Origin: Candidatus Calescibacterium sp.
Lineage (GTDB): Bacteria; Calescibacteriota; Calescibacteriia; Calescibacteriales; Calescibacteriaceae
Length of the DNA: 32,081 nt
Direction: 5' to 3'
Assembly: GCA_025060505.1 (NCBI GenBank)
Contig: JANXBU010000020.1
Location: 1-32,081 of the forward strand
This document shows positions 10,012 through 22,143 of this stretch, piece by piece. Below the pieces are notes generated by a model. That model made no database searches. It was not told the origin of the DNA and worked only from the letters and a program-made list of their open reading frames with translations. Made by a program: the position numbers and the translations under genes. Position 1 is the stretch's first letter. Each line of letters begins with the position of its first letter.

Positions 10012-13008
10012 TTACCTCAGAAAGCTTGCGAATATTCCGCGAGAAAAAAGATCTGCAAAGAAAATCAGGTTTTTGCTACCTCTGAAATATTTTACATCAG
10101 AAGTTGCTATTCCAAAATTTGGAGATATACCGAGAATTTCTATATCTTCTCCGGAGTTAAGGAAATCTGTCAGATGGAAGATTATCATTGCTGAAACTTT
10201 CATCTGTTTAGTGGGAGAAGCAAGTGCAACTATAGCTATATCTATATCTCTTCCGGTTCCAAATATTTCATCAATAGCTTTTGTTATTTGAACTTTTGAA
10301 ATTAAAGGATATATTCCAAAGTATATTGATTGTTCTTTTATTTTGTTAAGCTCTCCATCGAAAACTTTTATTTTGATGTATGGTCCTTGTGTTAGGAACT
10401 CAAAGATGTATCCCTGATAGATTTCAAGTATTCCACCACCTTCACCTGTTGCTACTGTTCTGATTTGTCCGTTTTGTATCTTTATTATATTTGTTGCTGT
10501 GCTGAGATAAACAAGGTCACTGGAATATGTCAAGATATCAATTGTTGGTTCCTGAATTTTTAATCTAAATCGCTCTTTCATTACAAAGTTATCTATTTCA
10601 AATGATACAATATCTACTATTGGATCCTGACACCTTGATCCAACGAGGTCTATTATGTATTTTCCAGAAAATTTTTTTATATCTACCTTAGAGATTGAGT
10701 GTATGCCTATATCGTTGTATCTTTTGTATATTTTATATTTTCTCTGCTTCAAGCTTTGTTGGTCTTGCATGTCGTAAGCAAATATTCCAGAAACATTGAA
10801 ATCCTCACCGCATCCGGGTCTTTGTAGTATTGCAACGAGGGTTTTTCCGTCGTATAGGTGCTCTATGACCGAGTATTCCGGGTGTATAACAAGATCGTAA
10901 GTTAATCCTGGTATGTCTTTGGCATCTGGTTTTACAAACAGGTGAAATGTTGTTCCCTCAAGGGCTCCGTCGTTTGAGAATTTGAGAAATTTTATTCCTT
11001 CTTTCCCAGCTGCTGAAATAAATATTCCTTCATTTGTTTGGTATCCAGATATATTGCTTGGTTGGACGTTGAAGGATTCTGAATCAATTATCTCAAGTTT
11101 GTTTCTCGAGATTTTAGAGCTAAGAATGAATCTTCCTGAGTGTATAATTAAGTTGTCAAAGTTAGCACTCAGGATATTTTTTGCATCTGTTTCTGTTAAT
11201 ATACAGTTTGTTTTCAGATTTCTTTTGATGTTTCCTGACGAAAAAATGAAAGGGTAGTAAGATATTCTTCTGCACTTTGTACCACCTACTTCGTCAAGGC
11301 AGAGTGAAGAGACAAGGCAAATTTCTCCAGTATCACATAGAGATATGTTGTTTCCTAATGTTGCATCAAATGCGTTCAGAGTGTAGGATTTCTGGGTATC
11401 TGTTAGTGTGCAGATTTCTAAATCTGGTATATCTCTTATGACCTCTGGCATATTTATATTGGTTTTAGATAATGGTGAGCAGTTACCAGATATGCAAGGC
11501 TGTACTTCAAATATGTATGTTCTGTAACTTGCTCCTCTACTGAAATCTGTTGTTGGTATCAGGAGATATATTTTCCCATCTGTATCTTTAAAAAAAAGGA
11601 ATTTTTGAGGAAGATTGTTTATTTGTATCTCAGAATTAGTTGAGCTGTTTTGATCTACTAACCATATTTTTACTGTATTGTCGTATATTATGTTGAAGGA
11701 ATGAAGCGAGATTTTGAATAGTGTATTTCTTTGGTAATGTGCAAGATATATTTTGTTGTTCTGTTCATCTGCGTAAAGACCGTATGTTCCAGAGAATTCT
11801 GACGGCATTTCAAAGGTAGAGCAACCTGTATCTCCTGGGAAGTCCGGTGGTTTGTATGGACAGAAGAAAACAAATTTTCCAAAAAAGAATACAAAGAATG
11901 TTGCTTTGTTTTGAAATGTTATAGAATCTATTTTTTCAGAGAGCCTTGTTATTTCGTTATAAGTGTTCCAGTTTATTCCAGATGCTGTTATTGGGAATAT
12001 TTTTACATTGGAGCCAGAGCCAGCGAGTAAAAATTTATCTCCTATACTTATATCCACAGATGTAAGTGTTATTATGTTTTGAAATTTGAGTCTTCCATCT
12101 TTTTCTACTTCGTATTCAGTTATTTCGTAATCTGGTTTTGATATGATTATTACGGTTGTTGGATTGAGGAATTTTGTTTGTATTTTTGGTATTGAGATTT
12201 CCATTGGTATGAATGTGAATTTTTCGAACTTCCTGAGCACGTATACAGGTTCTATGTTTTGATTCTCACATAGATTTCCTCCGTCGTCTATGACTTTTAA
12301 TCTTGGGGTATATATACCAAGTTCTTGATATGTAAAGTTGAAAGATGGTTGATCTGTTTCTCCATCTTGCGAGAATTCTCCTCCTTTATTATCTGCGTCC
12401 CATATAAATTTGAATTTACAGTTTGTTCCGGAGAGGTGGTTGAAGTTTCCGCATCTGTCATCTGTTACATCTGCTCCGAGCTGAACTGAAAATGGTGGGA
12501 GTTCTATTGGAGCTCCAGCTGGTGAGGCGATATATATTCTTACGGAGCAAGGCTGGTTACTGTATACTATTACATCTGTTTTTCCCTCTCCTTTCCCTTT
12601 TTCTTCTGTTTCAGCTGATGCTACGAACGAAAAGATTTTTGCTGGTTCTCCGGCAAATGTTATTCTCTCATTGAACGATATGGATACATTTTTTCCACCA
12701 GATGTTATTGATATAGAGTATTTATCTTCTGTAAGATTAGTATCTTGAATTTTTTCTTCTTTTTTAATTTCTCTTCTGAATATTTCTTGGTCTTCAAATT
12801 TTATGGTCACATTTTTTATTGGAGATATTGAGTATATTGATACTTGTATTGAGAAGTCGGCTGGTGATATACCGGAAAGAGGGTTTGCGAACACTTTTAC
12901 ATCTACTGGTGCAAAGTTTGCGGATTTTGATCCACATATAGCGAGTATTGTGGAGAGCGAGAAAATTGCGAGAGATGATATTATTGCGACGAGAGTTTTT
13001 GAGTCCAA
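10012..13008 (-). CDS. Large exported protein, possible lipoprotein, with PKD-like domain
   Basis: 998 residues of unknown function. An N-terminal hydrophobic segment (residues ~6-24) ends in ILAICGSKS. Cys25 could be lipidated, although isoleucine at -1 is unusual for a lipobox. Residues ~198-260 look like a PKD/Ig-type domain (FTYQELGIYTPRLKVIDDGG). The remainder is beta-rich with scattered cysteines (a cluster near LCDTGEICLVSSLCLDE) and repeated strand patterns suggestive of beta-propeller or adhesin-like folds. The start is TTG at 13008, only six bases after the CCA of tRNA-Pro; no ATG fits before the signal segment. The gene follows the HEAT gene and the tRNA on the same strand. Confidence 0.75.
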   Translation of the reverse strand: MDSKTLVAIISSLAIFSLSTILAICGSKSANFAPVDVKVFANPLSGISPADFSIQVSIYSISPIKNVTIKFEDQEIFRREIKKEEKIQDTNLTEDKYSISITSGGKNVSISFNERITFAGEPAKIFSFVASAETEEKGKGEGKTDVIVYSNQPCSVRIYIASPAGAPIELPPFSVQLGADVTDDRCGNFNHLSGTNCKFKFIWDADNKGGEFSQDGETDQPSFNFTYQELGIYTPRLKVIDDGGNLCENQNIEPVYVLRKFEKFTFIPMEISIPKIQTKFLNPTTVIIISKPDYEITEYEVEKDGRLKFQNIITLTSVDISIGDKFLLAGSGSNVKIFPITASGINWNTYNEITRLSEKIDSITFQNKATFFVFFFGKFVFFCPYKPPDFPGDTGCSTFEMPSEFSGTYGLYADEQNNKIYLAHYQRNTLFKISLHSFNIIYDNTVKIWLVDQNSSTNSEIQINNLPQKFLFFKDTDGKIYLLIPTTDFSRGASYRTYIFEVQPCISGNCSPLSKTNINMPEVIRDIPDLEICTLTDTQKSYTLNAFDATLGNNISLCDTGEICLVSSLCLDEVGGTKCRRISYYPFIFSSGNIKRNLKTNCILTETDAKNILSANFDNLIIHSGRFILSSKISRNKLEIIDSESFNVQPSNISGYQTNEGIFISAAGKEGIKFLKFSNDGALEGTTFHLFVKPDAKDIPGLTYDLVIHPEYSVIEHLYDGKTLVAILQRPGCGEDFNVSGIFAYDMQDQQSLKQRKYKIYKRYNDIGIHSISKVDIKKFSGKYIIDLVGSRCQDPIVDIVSFEIDNFVMKERFRLKIQEPTIDILTYSSDLVYLSTATNIIKIQNGQIRTVATGEGGGILEIYQGYIFEFLTQGPYIKIKVFDGELNKIKEQSIYFGIYPLISKVQITKAIDEIFGTGRDIDIAIVALASPTKQMKVSAMIIFHLTDFLNSGEDIEILGISPNFGIATSDVKYFRGSKNLIFFADLFSRGIFASFLR

Positions 13009-17115: not shown

Positions 17116-18351
17116 ATGTTGAGAGCCATGGTTATTTCTGTTGGGACTGGTAGAGATAGGCAAGACATAGCATCGGCTATAGTTGGACTTATAAAACGGC
17201 ATAGACCTGAGTATGTTATGTTTATTGCAACGCAGAAGTCAAAGGATGAAACTATTCCTATTATAACCGAGTCAATAGAATCAGAAAAAATAACTTATGA
17301 AATTAAGCTGATATCTGATGAAAATGATTTTGAGAAGATTTTTGGTGAATGTGTTGAATATCTTAAAGATCTCTTATCTAATTTCGAAGCTGATGAGATA
17401 CAGGTTGATTATACTTCTGGTACGAAAGCTATGTCTGTTGGTCTTGTTCTTTCCGCATTGGAACTTGAAGTGGGAGGATTATCCTATATTCACGGTCAAA
17501 GAGATCAAACAGGTAGAGTCCAGACTGGTACAGAGCGGTATCTTTCTTTTCCTCCAAACAGAATATATTCTTCAAGAATATTCAGAGAAGCCAAGCGCTT
17601 TTTCAATATTTACAGATATGATTCAGCTTATGAGCTAGCTGAGAAATTAAAAATTTCCAATCAGAATGAAGTAACTATTTTCAAAAAGCTTTGCGAAGCA
17701 TACTCTGGTTGGGATAAGTTTAATTTAAAGAAGTCTTTTGAGATTCTCAAGGAAATTACAGAGTCAGACAAAGACGATGTTCTTTCCAAGTGGAATATAA
17801 AGCAAAAGTTGGAGAAACACAAACAAATTCTCTACAAAGAATTGAAAAATCCGTTTTGTGAGGAGAAGATGGTAGACCTATTTGCCAATGCTAAAAGAAG
17901 ATATGAAGAGGGAAAATATGACGATTCAGTTGCAAGGCTATACAGACTTATTGAGTATATAGCACAGTTTCGTATAAGTCAGAAAGGACTTTACTACCAG
18001 TCAAATGGGAGACCAGATACAAGTCGTATAGATATTTCAAAGCTCAGTCCTGAAATTCAGGAAAAATACAGGTCAGAGAGACTTGCGCTTACTCGTTCTT
18101 ATGAACTCCTGAGCGATGTTGGGGATGAATTAGGAAAGAAGATTTACTCCGATATTCAGGATAAAGATGGAAAATTGAAAGCTCTTTTGGGTATAAGAAA
18201 TAAGTCTATTCTTGCCCACGGCTTTGATCCGATAGAAAAAGATACATGCTCAGATATGATGAGTTACGTTGAAGATATTCTTATAAAAGATATTGGTATA
18301 AACAAGAGTTTGTTTTCAGAAATAGAATTTCCAAAATTAGAGGTGATATGA
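17116..18351 (+). CDS. CRISPR-associated CARF-HEPN ribonuclease, Cas02710 (Csm6/Csx1-like) family
   Basis: 411 residues. The N-terminal CARF domain (~1-150) has the first strand MVISVGTGRD and the family motif DYTSGTKAMSVGL at 98-110, which in this family helps bind cyclic oligoadenylate. The C-terminal helical domain carries R361-NKSILA-H368, an R-x6-H motif as in HEPN ribonucleases. Family knowledge: type III CRISPR Cas10 makes cyclic oligoadenylate that activates such RNases. Cas10 and all other cas genes are missing here, but a CRISPR array lies 247 bases downstream. TATAAAT ends three bases before the ATG, so the transcript may be leaderless. Confidence 0.85.
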   Translation: MLRAMVISVGTGRDRQDIASAIVGLIKRHRPEYVMFIATQKSKDETIPIITESIESEKITYEIKLISDENDFEKIFGECVEYLKDLLSNFEADEIQVDYTSGTKAMSVGLVLSALELEVGGLSYIHGQRDQTGRVQTGTERYLSFPPNRIYSSRIFREAKRFFNIYRYDSAYELAEKLKISNQNEVTIFKKLCEAYSGWDKFNLKKSFEILKEITESDKDDVLSKWNIKQKLEKHKQILYKELKNPFCEEKMVDLFANAKRRYEEGKYDDSVARLYRLIEYIAQFRISQKGLYYQSNGRPDTSRIDISKLSPEIQEKYRSERLALTRSYELLSDVGDELGKKIYSDIQDKDGKLKALLGIRNKSILAHGFDPIEKDTCSDMMSYVEDILIKDIGINKSLFSEIEFPKLEVI

Positions 18352-18597
18352 GTCCAGATGAATTTATTCTGAAAGGGTAAATCTTCTGATTTGGTAAGAA
18401 AGGAATTGGAGAGAATACTTTCCAGCAGGGTTCATCAAAGTTTTGTTTATTGTCATACTATTTTATTTTTTAATCATATTTTTTAATGATGAGCGAAGAA
18501 TTGAGGTAGGGGGAGGGGGTAGGCGATTTTTTGAGGGGGGCTGCCAAAATTGGCTCTGGACCCATTGAAAATCAAGGGCTCCGGAGGGTAGCTCTCA
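18352..18597. other. Region between the CARF gene and the CRISPR array, with a G-rich block
   Basis: The left part is AT-rich (ATTTTATTTTTTAATCATAT at about 18460-18480), like a CRISPR leader. The right part is unusually G-rich for this genome: five-G runs at 18509-18513 and 18515-18519, short GG pairs on both sides and a six-G run at 18535-18540. The last ~50 bases (GGCTCTGGACCC, ATTGAAAATC) weakly recall the repeat that follows and may be an eroded repeat. No coding region is seen. Confidence 0.4.
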
Positions 18598-18840
18598 GAA
18601 ACCAGACCCGTACATAAGGGGATTGCGACACATCAGATAAATCAAGATACTCTAATTGAACTCTACACCAGACCCGTACATAAGGGGATTGCGACCCCAT
18701 GAATCTTGTCTGGAAAGCATTTGGCAATTCAAGAAACCAGACCCGTACATAAGGGATTGCGACCTGGGGTCAAACACTCTTATCAATATGAATGACCCAT
18801 CCGGCTCAGAAACCAGACCCGTACATAAGGGGATTGCGAC
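18598..18840 (+). CRISPR. Short degenerate CRISPR array (four repeats, three spacers)
   Basis: Repeats are at 18598-18629, 18664-18695, 18733-18763 and 18809-18840. The 32-base consensus begins GAAACCAGACCCGTAC and ends AAGGGGATTGCGAC. Repeat 2 differs in its first three bases and repeat 3 has lost one G. Copies 1 and 4 also share the preceding bases CTCA, so the true repeat may be ~36 bases. Spacers are 34, 37 and 45 bases and unrelated. The ATTGCGAC end resembles the ATTGAAAC 5' handle of many type I-B/III repeats, so plus is the likely transcribed strand. CCC and GGG around GTACATAA can form a weak hairpin. No Cas1/Cas2 in the window. Confidence 0.9.
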
Positions 18841-18844
18841 ATGT

Positions 18845-19484
18845 ATGGGAGATACACAAGTTTTATGTAAAGCAACTATACAACAGGGGCAAACCACCAC
18901 ACCTTAAAGGGACAAATTTTGGCTGTATCACTGCGGAATACTTTATGTTACCACAAGCGTCATCACAACAACGTAATCCAAGGCAACAACAACTTACAAG
19001 TGGCCTTAGTAAAGAAATTTCCAGAATCATTGTTAGGTCATTACGCGCAGTAGTAAACCTTGACCTACTTGAACCTAACTATAATTGTTGACTGTGATGT
19101 GCTTCAAGCTGACGGTGGTACAAGAACATCAGCTATAAACGATGCATTTGTTACACTTTATGATCTTTTTCAAAAGTTAGTTATTGGATGCAAACTCACA
19201 CAAGATCCTATAACAAAATTTATAGGTAGCATTTCTGTTGGTATGGTTTGTGGTAAAAAAATTGCTGACTTATCACAAAAAGAAGATAATGAAGCAGAAG
19301 TTGATATGACACTTGCTATGACTGAAGATAAAGAACTTGTTGAACTACAATTTACTGCAGAGAAAAATTGTATGATTTAAAACTACTAAATGAACTTATA
19401 AATCTTGGTTGGAGAAGTTTAGCAAAAATTATTCGTCTTGAAAAAGGATGTTTAATCATAACAAAACTTGTTATAACATTATGA
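18845..19484 (+). pseudogene. rph: rph pseudogene (RNase PH), N-terminus missing, frameshifted
   Basis: RNase PH trims tRNA 3' ends with phosphate. The homology is split over three frames: MGDTQVLCKATIQQG (from 18845), then KPPHLKGTNFGCITAEYFML and ISRIIVRSLRAVVNLDLL, then IIVDCDVLQADGGTRTSAI, SVGMVCGKKIADL, EAEVDMTLAMT and VELQFTAEK, and finally LKLLNELINLGWRSLAKI. Shifts fall near 18890, 19080 and 19367. About 33 N-terminal residues expected before MGDT are absent; instead a CRISPR repeat ends four bases upstream. The reconstructed stop overlaps the pyrF ATG (ATGA), so the donor had an rph-pyrF operon. Confidence 0.88.
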
Positions 19485-20118
19485 GTACAAAACTTGTAAT
19501 TGCACTTGATACAGAAATAAAAAAAGCTAAAGAAATTGTCAAGCAGGCAGTAGAGTATAAATTTAACCTATTCAAAATAGGACACTTATTGTTTGATACT
19601 CAACCACAAATTATTGATTATATTTCCAGCTTAGGTGGCAATGTTATACTTGGTTTAAAATTTCATCATATACCTTCAGTGATAGGGAAAGCTGTGAAAG
19701 AAATTTTAAATAAATATAAAATCTTTGGTTTAACTGTGCATAGTTTAGGTAGAAAAAATTGTTAGAAGAAGTAGTAGCCACAGTTTCACAATTTAAACCG
19801 AAACCTTTAGTTTTTGTAGTAACAATACTTACAAGTATAAACCAACACGAACTTGAAAAACTTGGGTTTAAAAATAAACTTATTGATTGTTGTGTTTAAC
19901 CTTGCAAAACTTGCAAAACAGTGTAGGACAGACGGTATTGTATTTTCACCAGTTGAAGTTATTAAGAAAACTTTAGGAAAGAAATTTCTAAAATTAGTCC
20001 CAGGCGTAAGTATAAAAATAAAAATATTGACCAAAACAGGACTACCACAATTGAGAAAGTAATCTCGTCAGGTGCAGATTGTTATATGAAGAAGTATTTA
20101 CGAAACTCAAAATTTTAA
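19481..20118 (+). pseudogene. pyrF: pyrF pseudogene (orotidine-5'-phosphate decarboxylase), frameshifted
   Basis: Starts MSTKLVIALDTEIKKAKEI with the KIGHLLFDTQP strand and LGLKFHHIPSVIGKA, equivalent to the catalytic DLKFHDIP block. The frame breaks near 19750 at an A run. It resumes as LLEEVVATVSQFKPKPLVF and VTILTSINQHELEKLG, breaks near 19890, and continues FNLAKLAKQCRTDGIVFSP and LVPGVSIK. After a third break near 20020 it ends IDQNRTTTIEKVISSGADCY, the phosphate-binding end of the enzyme. At least three frameshifts, plus H for D in the catalytic block, show it is dead unless the shifts are sequencing errors. Confidence 0.87.
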
Positions 20119-20170: not shown

Positions 20171-21304
20171 ATGAACAAAGAACTTCAATTGTTGTTATTA
20201 CCAGAAAAAAAAGAAGTTCCTCTGGTGAAACAGGTTATATTAAATAAAGATAAATTTATACAAATATTAAATAAAATTCTACACATTAACGATCTGGTGG
20301 ATATAACAAAAGAGATTGCTGTGCTTAGGGATATTATAGGAGATTATAAAAAAGACAATATAGGGATTTTGAATATTACCAATGATGGAAATACAGTTGT
20401 TCTAAGGCAAGACGTGTTGATTTCAGAATTAACAAAAATAATTGAAGCACAAACGATAGAACGTGCAAAATATTATATAAAAAGGTTAAAAGAAGGTGTA
20501 GAAAAAGTAAAAACAACAAAAATAAATGATATAAACCTTTTAAGATGGAAAGAATACGACGAAATAATCACAGATAGTCTATGGATACTTAAAAAACGAG
20601 ATTCTTCTGGCGCACATCTTGGATGGTACTGGGGTAATTTTATACCACAAATACCACACCAGATGATGTTAAGATATACTAAAAAAGACGAGTGGGTACT
20701 AGACCCTTTTGTGGGAAGTGGAACTACATTGATAGAATGCAGACGATTAGGCAGAAATGGTATTGGAATAGAACTTAATCCAGAAGTAGCTGAAAAAGCA
20801 AAACGGTTAGTTGAAAAAGAAGAAAATAAATATCAGGTCATCACAGAGATAATTGTAGGAGATAGTAGAACTATCGGAATGAAACAAATTCTTGATAAAC
20901 ATAAAATAAATAAAGTTCAACTATTAATTATGCATCCTCCATATCACGATATTATAAAATTCTCAAAAGACCCAAGAGACCTTTCAAACGCGAGAAATTT
21001 AGGAAAATTTTTAAAAATGTTTAATGAAGTACTGCAAAATACAATACCTTTTTTAGAAAAAGACCGATATTTTGTATTAGTAATAGGAGATAAATATTCA
21101 AAAGGTGAATGGATACCCTTAGGATTTTATTGTATGCAGGAAGTCTTAAACACAAAAGAATTTATATTAAAAAGTATAATAGTAAAAAATTTCGAGGAAA
21201 CAAGGGGTAAAAGAAATCAGAAAGAACTTTGGCGGTACCGTGCATTAGTTGGTGGATTTTATGTATTTAAGCACGAGTATATAATGGTTTTTAAGAAAAA
21301 ATAA
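20171..21304 (+). CDS. DNA adenine/cytosine-N4 methyltransferase of a type II restriction-modification pair
   Basis: 377 residues. The AdoMet-binding motif I DPFVGSGTTLIEC is at 178-190, followed by GIGIELNP. The catalytic motif IV is HPPYHDI at 255-261, where most relatives have N/S/D-PPY. Motif I precedes motif IV by ~75 residues, unlike the IV-then-I order of the common beta-class N6_N4 enzymes. The N-terminal ~130 residues show no known motif and may recognise DNA. The stop lies five bases before the endonuclease-like gene. Codon use (TTA, ATA, AGA, AAA) is more AT-rich than the host genes. No Shine-Dalgarno. Confidence 0.82.
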   Translation: MNKELQLLLLPEKKEVPLVKQVILNKDKFIQILNKILHINDLVDITKEIAVLRDIIGDYKKDNIGILNITNDGNTVVLRQDVLISELTKIIEAQTIERAKYYIKRLKEGVEKVKTTKINDINLLRWKEYDEIITDSLWILKKRDSSGAHLGWYWGNFIPQIPHQMMLRYTKKDEWVLDPFVGSGTTLIECRRLGRNGIGIELNPEVAEKAKRLVEKEENKYQVITEIIVGDSRTIGMKQILDKHKINKVQLLIMHPPYHDIIKFSKDPRDLSNARNLGKFLKMFNEVLQNTIPFLEKDRYFVLVIGDKYSKGEWIPLGFYCMQEVLNTKEFILKSIIVKNFEETRGKRNQKELWRYRALVGGFYVFKHEYIMVFKKK

Positions 21305-21309
21305 CTTAT

Positions 21310-22143
21310 ATGCCTTTATTTAGTGAAAAAGAAATATTAAATCTAAAGTTAAATTCATTATATCTAACTGATTTGAAGGAGTTAGCTTTATTATATAACA
21401 TAAGAAAATCTTCTTCCGCAAGCGAAATCATAAAAAGTATTTTAGAGAAAAATATCTCAGAAAAAGATTTAGACGATTTTATTAAACAAAAGTATGCCAC
21501 TAAAATTGCTGAAAGAAGAAAAATTATCTCAGATACAGAATTAAAAAGAGAGTTATTAAAAGTACAAACTTTTTCTTGGGGAGTAATCCAAGGACAATTA
21601 GACTGGAAAATACAAACTGAATATGTACGCAAAATAGTACGATATGATGAATTATTAAAATCTGTAAAATCAAATCTTTATAATGATATAACAAATTATG
21701 TAATATGTACTTGGTTTAACCATTGGACAACAGTTCTTATTGAAGAACATATTTCTTTACATCCAAAAGTAATTCCTACAATAAAAAATGTAAAGGGGAT
21801 AGATATATTCTTTGACAACCAACCTTTTGATTTAAAAATAACATATTTACCTCGTGGATATAACCCTGATGATGCAGTTAAAAATCCTAAACAATTAGCT
21901 ATATGGTTATATGAGAATCAGGGTGAACAAAGGTTTGGTTCTGACAACAGATTATTTGTTGTGGTATTAGACAAAGAAAATATAGATGAAAGTTGGAAGT
22001 TAAAAAGAGATTTTGATTTTGTATTTCAAAAAATCGATGAGTTTTTAGATAAAGAAAAAGTGTCAAAAAATGATGAAATAGTTTTTTCTTATAAAAGAAA
22101 AACTTATACTGCAATTACAAAAATTTTAATGATAACAAAATAA
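21310..22143 (+). CDS. Putative type II restriction endonuclease (PD-(D/E)xK fold)
   Basis: 277 residues. Residues ~12-46 form a small helical, SAP/HeH-like segment (LKLNSLYLTDLKELALLY). A PD-(D/E)xK-type active site is plausible at GID165 ... D174-L-K176 (KGIDIFFDNQPFDLKITYLP). A long charged helical region precedes it, and the C-terminus is a strand-helix mix with no signal peptide. Pairing with the methyltransferase (same strand, five-base gap) and matching codon use support a restriction-modification system. The recognition site and subfamily are unknown, and the endonuclease role is inferred from the motif and the partner gene. Confidence 0.68.
   Translation: MPLFSEKEILNLKLNSLYLTDLKELALLYNIRKSSSASEIIKSILEKNISEKDLDDFIKQKYATKIAERRKIISDTELKRELLKVQTFSWGVIQGQLDWKIQTEYVRKIVRYDELLKSVKSNLYNDITNYVICTWFNHWTTVLIEEHISLHPKVIPTIKNVKGIDIFFDNQPFDLKITYLPRGYNPDDAVKNPKQLAIWLYENQGEQRFGSDNRLFVVVLDKENIDESWKLKRDFDFVFQKIDEFLDKEKVSKNDEIVFSYKRKTYTAITKILMITK

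Follow-up and report, generated by a model that had tools for sequence, protein, structure and literature searches.

A CARF-HEPN effector beside one of three dispersed type III CRISPR arrays in Candidatus Calescibacterium

Introduction

A gene for a CARF-HEPN protein that is followed by a short CRISPR array raises the question of whether the two form a unit of their own, are left over from a decaying system, or serve CRISPR modules encoded elsewhere in the genome. We investigated such a locus in Candidatus Calescibacterium sp. The sequence analysed (the window) is the entire contig C28, 32,081 bases with no flanking sequence beyond, from a 2.28-Mb draft genome estimated to be 86% complete. The reading that we consider probable is that the protein is a cA4-activated type III ancillary RNase of the TTHB144 kind that acts in trans, its gene lying beside an array that has two dispersed counterparts elsewhere in the genome.

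An earlier note, made from the window alone, had reported that Cas10, Csm/Cmr, Cas6, Cas1 and Cas2 are missing from the 32 kb. A family-wide search upheld this for the RAMP, Cas1, Cas10 and Cas6 families. Elsewhere on the contig, a type II DNA methyltransferase gene adjoins a gene for a 277-aa protein without a family match (20171-22143), perhaps a restriction-modification pair, and the minus strand encodes a 998-aa protein that matches no Pfam, NCBIfam or PADLOC family (10012-13008). A 77% match of the stretch L019 to the window consists of tRNA genes.

Results

The window protein belongs to the TIGR02710 family of CARF-HEPN effectors

The gene and its two characteristic motifs are located as follows:

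17116-18351, plus strand: CARF-HEPN effector, TIGR02710/Cas_Cas02710 (Csx1/Csm6 type), 411 aa, a single uninterrupted frame
17407-17427, plus strand: CARF ligand motif D98-YTSGT-K104, in which K104 pairs with K94 of TTHB144 in the alignment
18196-18219, plus strand: HEPN catalytic motif R361-x6-H368 (RNKSILAH, residues 361-368), which aligns with H368 of TTHB144

The protein scored 195.4 bits against TIGR02710 (cut-off 83.9) and 100.7 bits against PF09670, the Csm6 HEPN family (cut-off 27), and matched the PADLOC CARF_HEPN family with an E value of 2e-89, which groups it with CARF_HEPN/Csx1 proteins. It also contains a 6H domain and a Card1-type CARF match. The two hallmarks of the Csx1-Csm6 family, a CARF ligand motif and an HEPN R-x4-6-H motif, are thus both present, and the earlier identification of a Cas02710-type effector with DYTSGTK (residues 98-104) and R-x6-H (residues 361-368) was correct. 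When the protein is aligned with six relatives, D98, T100, G102, T103, R361 and H368 are among the positions that never vary; K104 is conserved in all except the Rubrobacter protein, which has a Thr at that position. A seven-relative profile matched TtCsm6 at an E value of 6e-81; its match to Sso2081, a ring nuclease, had an E value of 1e-7. An AlphaFold2 model made without an alignment had a pLDDT of 35 and was uninformative.

Among the known systems closest to it is TTHB144 of Thermus thermophilus HB8, a member of the same NCBIfam family with 26% identity over the full length. TTHB144 is a cA4-activated RNase whose CARF domain in addition breaks down cA4; the K94A mutant loses both activities and the H368A mutant loses the RNase activity (PMC6599890). 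Both the CARF lysine (K94/K104) and the HEPN R..H motif (H368/H368) are shared. Of T10 and T11 of TTHB144, which like K94 serve cA4 binding and cleavage, T10 is conserved in the window protein, whereas T11 is replaced by Gly.

The window protein is the sole PF09670 member in the whole draft genome, and a scan of genome contigs with it returned no relatives. None were detected in the viral contigs or phages searched, and both the protein and the repeat of its array are absent from the other four genomes of the phylum collection (five genomes in total). Plasmid-borne relatives in Thermus, Thermomicrobium, Synechocystis and Rubrobacter adjoin csm, cmr, cas1 or cas6.

The array next to the effector has regular spacers and an intact leader

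Downstream of the effector gene we located a leader and four repeats, followed by a pair of pseudogenes:

18438-18593, plus strand: CRISPR leader, 95-98% identical to the leaders on contigs C11 and C60
18594-18629, plus strand: repeat 1, with the 29-base core at 18601-18629 and CTCAGAA in front
18630-18666, plus strand: spacer 1, the newest, 37 bases
18667-18695, plus strand: repeat 2, 29-base form with a perfect core
18696-18735, plus strand: spacer 2, 40 bases
18736-18763, plus strand: repeat 3, 29-base form minus one G
18764-18804, plus strand: spacer 3, the oldest, 41 bases
18805-18840, plus strand: repeat 4, 36-base form (CTCAGAA plus core), the same as repeat 1
18841-20100, plus strand: decayed rph-pyrF pseudogene pair (RNase PH, OMP decarboxylase), with rph lacking its 5' part at the array end

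The four-repeat array that the earlier note had placed beside the effector is therefore real, and the distance of 247 bases given there is close to what we measured from the effector stop codon (249 bases to the 29-base core, 242 bases to the 36-base form). The description of the array as degenerate did not survive, however. Repeat 2 is a perfect 29-base core and repeat 3 is short of one G only, so that they are not the mutated copies they were taken for. The spacers do not range from 34 to 45 bases; they are 37, 40 and 41 bases long, and the apparent variation arises because the repeats come in two lengths, 29 and 36 bases. Irregular spacers and degenerate repeats had been read as signs of a remnant, but the leader is intact and the units at the leader end are regular. 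An active array would be expected to have an intact leader and unique newest spacers, and here the leader is 95-98% identical to its counterparts and no spacer is common to two arrays.

The three window spacers had no match among viral contigs when 23-base cores were used, and their matches to phages had E values of 0.5 or weaker, which we read as chance, so that no convincing target emerged from either set. The hairpin potential of the repeat is no stronger than that of shuffled sequences (z −0.3). A relic of cas1 or cas2 between effector and leader, of the kind described upstream of Thermus arrays, was sought and not found (P 0.41 and 0.06). The decayed rph starts directly after the last repeat and runs into the decayed pyrF; an intact pyrF adjoins the III-A operon on contig C22.

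Three arrays in the genome have one leader and one repeat

A 27-base core of the repeat, allowing at most one mismatch, has 14 copies in the genome, distributed over three contigs, and the reversed control pattern has none, so the repeat is not a chance pattern. A leader search of the genome returned exactly three copies (C28, C11 and C60), each extending about 160 bases before the first repeat. On C11 the leader is preceded by cas2 and a 3' fragment of a cas1, and on C60 it stands alone beside ligA without a cas2. The sequence preceding cas2 on C11 (L010, 440-601) is 92% identical to that preceding the leader on C60 (L011, 1122-1282); cas2 is nevertheless absent at C60, pointing to a clean loss or gain of this gene. 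No match to the repeat pattern was obtained in other genomes.

Because the same repeat and a near-identical leader occur at three genome sites, the window array is not isolated but belongs to a set of three dispersed type III arrays. The earlier note had suggested looking for a main array with this repeat, and a family of such arrays is present, with further members on C11 and C60. The type III assignment is based on regular repeats, a leader and the presence of the same repeat at cas genes, the last of these provided by the cas1 fragment and cas2 on C11. In T. thermophilus HB8 a gene of the same family as the effector precedes cas1 and an array whose repeats match the window repeats in their last 14 bases, AAGGGGATTGCGAC. 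The 3' end of the repeat is thus that of T. thermophilus type III arrays, and the I-B repeat of the same Calescibacterium genome differs.

These findings bear on the possibility that effector and array constitute a self-contained satellite, independent of the type III modules. The two adjoin each other and the contig has no further cas gene, as such a unit would have it, but the same leader and repeat accompany cas1-cas2 on C11 and stand alone on C60, and a CARF-HEPN protein needs a cyclase, which the window contig does not encode. Judged from the common leader and repeats, the satellite explanation appears largely refuted, and we consider it very improbable.

Type III modules are encoded on other contigs

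The earlier note had suggested that the effector may respond to a signal from a type III system encoded at another site, and the genome indeed has two such systems. Contig C22 carries a III-A operon composed of cas10 with a GGDD motif, csm2, csm3, csm4 and csm5, with no effector gene beside it. Contig C115 ends inside a III-B operon that comprises cmr4, cmr5, cmr6 and a gene for a TIGR02619-type CARF protein. This CARF protein, encoded after cmr6 (L020, 8395-9219), has a weak ring-nuclease match and is a possible cA4 off-switch. A direct-repeat array was found neither on the assembled 16 kb around the III-A operon nor on the 11 kb of the III-B contig, and the three dispersed arrays are for this reason candidates to serve the type III modules, as far as the assembled sequence goes.

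Contig C38 has a complete I-B system, cas6b-cas8b-cas7-cas5-cas3-cas4-cas1, followed by a short cas2-like frame (L021, 10154-10417, read from the sequence). Upstream of its cas6b another 29-base repeat, distinct from that of the three arrays, occurs twice at a distance of 64 bases (L021, 1189-1281) and nowhere else in the genome; the two copies are probably what is left of a nearly lost I-B array. A stand-alone PF10040 cas6 lies between gatB and gyrA on C27 (L046, 7500-8498), with its N-terminal part in another frame.

We propose that a dimer of the CARF domains would bind a cyclic oligoadenylate, most likely cA4, and thereby switch on the HEPN RNase, and that the CARF domain may slowly destroy its activator. 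The activator would be made in trans by Cas10, either that of the III-A module on C22 or that of the III-B module on C115, for which the assembly contains no cas10. The window array would be transcribed and would supply crRNAs to the III-A and III-B modules; those from 18594-18840 are expected to have a 5' ATTGCGAC handle. Its spacers would have been gained by an integrase acting in trans. We infer the activator, the RNase activity, the crRNA use and a present-day function of the locus.

Genes of the III-A pathway are frameshifted in the assembly

What speaks against this proposal is a III-A cyclase source that is possibly dead, the absence of a III-B cas10 from the 86%-complete assembly, and the lack of a convincing spacer target. 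In the III-A module the GGDD motif and csm3-5 are present, yet cas10 (between its HD and palm parts) and csm2 are frameshifted, as possibly is the start of csm3; the stand-alone cas6 and the cas1 on C11 are frameshifted as well. Since cas10, csm2, cas6 and, less surely, csm3 are affected, the III-A module may no longer be able to provide the signal. Four or five of the seven type III-A, Cas6 and Cas1 genes are visibly broken, compared to none of 22 other conserved genes examined (eight I-B genes, nine housekeeping genes, cmr5, cmr6, cas2 on C11 and both CARF genes). Fisher's test gave P values of 0.0002 with csm3 counted and 0.0015 without it, for gene sets that were picked after seeing the data.

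With frameshifts in cas10, csm2, cas6 and cas1, the type III pathway may be decaying, and loss of the III-A pathway, leaving the CARF-HEPN gene and the three arrays as stranded survivors without a signal, is a serious rival that we regard as possible rather than probable. The excess of frameshifts is consistent with it, as is the decayed rph-pyrF pair that borders the array. However, the CARF-HEPN gene is wholly intact with both motifs kept, and the assembled portions of cmr4-6 and of the III-B CARF gene are likewise unbroken. In addition, two of the frameshifts are at A5/A7 runs and one is just after T5, so that sequencing or assembly error, or slippage, could account for them, and the gene groups were chosen post hoc.

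Repeat units shortened from 36 to 29 bases in all three arrays

Measured from the 29-base core ACCAGACCCGTACATAAGGGGATTGCGAC, the unit spacings of the three arrays fall into two classes, short units of 65-69 bases and long units of 74-76 bases. The long units have CTCAGAA before the core (exact in four, with two mismatches in one), which makes a 36-base repeat. Long and short units number one and two in C28, one and two in C11, and three and four in C60. In all three arrays the 36-base units occupy the old end and the 29-base units the leader end, a perfect sorting with a chance probability of 1/315 (0.003) for 13 units in total. Spacers are 36-41 bases long in both unit classes. The leader-repeat junction is CTCAGAAACC in all three arrays, as it is in the old repeats, and the DNA site is therefore unaltered, which places the change in trans. 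A changed integrase is the simplest account of the shift from 36 to 29 bases.

One tentative explanation, which would add to the trans-acting effector reading and not replace it, is that the array-linked type III Cas1 failed and that the intact I-B Cas1-Cas2-Cas4 complex then inserted spacers into the three type III arrays, with its 29-base ruler making each new repeat 29 instead of 36 bases long. The crRNA 5' handle would, if so, have remained undisturbed and the arrays would be stratified by repeat length. The perfect age order of the two unit classes, spacers that differ between arrays and keep one length range, and the identical junction, which places the change in trans, all fit this scenario; so do the intact cas4-cas1-cas2 and the 29-base repeat pair of the I-B locus, and the frameshift near the 3' end of the C11 cas1. 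On the other hand, the units number only 13 and just two copies define the I-B repeat length. An assembly error could have produced the cas1 frameshift, in a gene that is also cut by the contig start, and the same shift could follow from mutation of the type III integrase or of a host factor.

Discussion

The placement of an effector and an array apart from the interference genes is an arrangement of a known kind, because Thermus has a same-family effector, cas1 and arrays in a similar layout. The TTHB144 gene in Thermus likewise has an adaptation gene and a type III array as neighbors, although in the window no cas1 follows the effector. The arrangement comes closest to that of T. thermophilus HB27c, where the CARF3-cas1-4-CRISPR-11 island combines a CARF gene, cas1 and a type III array and the genome has seven dispersed arrays with identical repeats (PMC7515739). 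In both organisms one repeat and related leaders recur at several arrays, there is a TIGR02710-type neighbor, and adaptation and interference genes lie elsewhere. Calescibacterium differs in having only three arrays, in belonging to an unrelated phylum, in that cas1-cas2 are at a different array (C11), and in its two repeat lengths.

Statistical evidence has led to the proposal that type III loci share effectors (PMC11229360). The Calescibacterium genome resembles the proposed cases of inter-locus cOA signaling in having a III-A module without an effector gene beside it and an effector elsewhere in the genome. Adaptation in trans between CRISPR types has been described in Flavobacterium, in a study that left unequal repeat lengths as a question to be solved (PMC8092290). 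If the I-B complex did serve the type III arrays, the Cas1-Cas2 of one type would likewise have acted on the array of another; in Flavobacterium, by contrast, both repeats are 36 bases long, and a change in length after such a takeover was not described (PMC8092290).

The step from 36 to 29 bases is relevant to that question, namely in what way adaptation proteins whose ruler is fixed could serve arrays of another repeat length (PMC8092290). For the phylum, which is poorly sampled with five genomes in the collection, the locus represents an ordinary type III arrangement. The effector-less III-A module together with a lone PF09670 protein on another contig makes this genome a tangible example to set beside the proposal of cOA signaling between loci.
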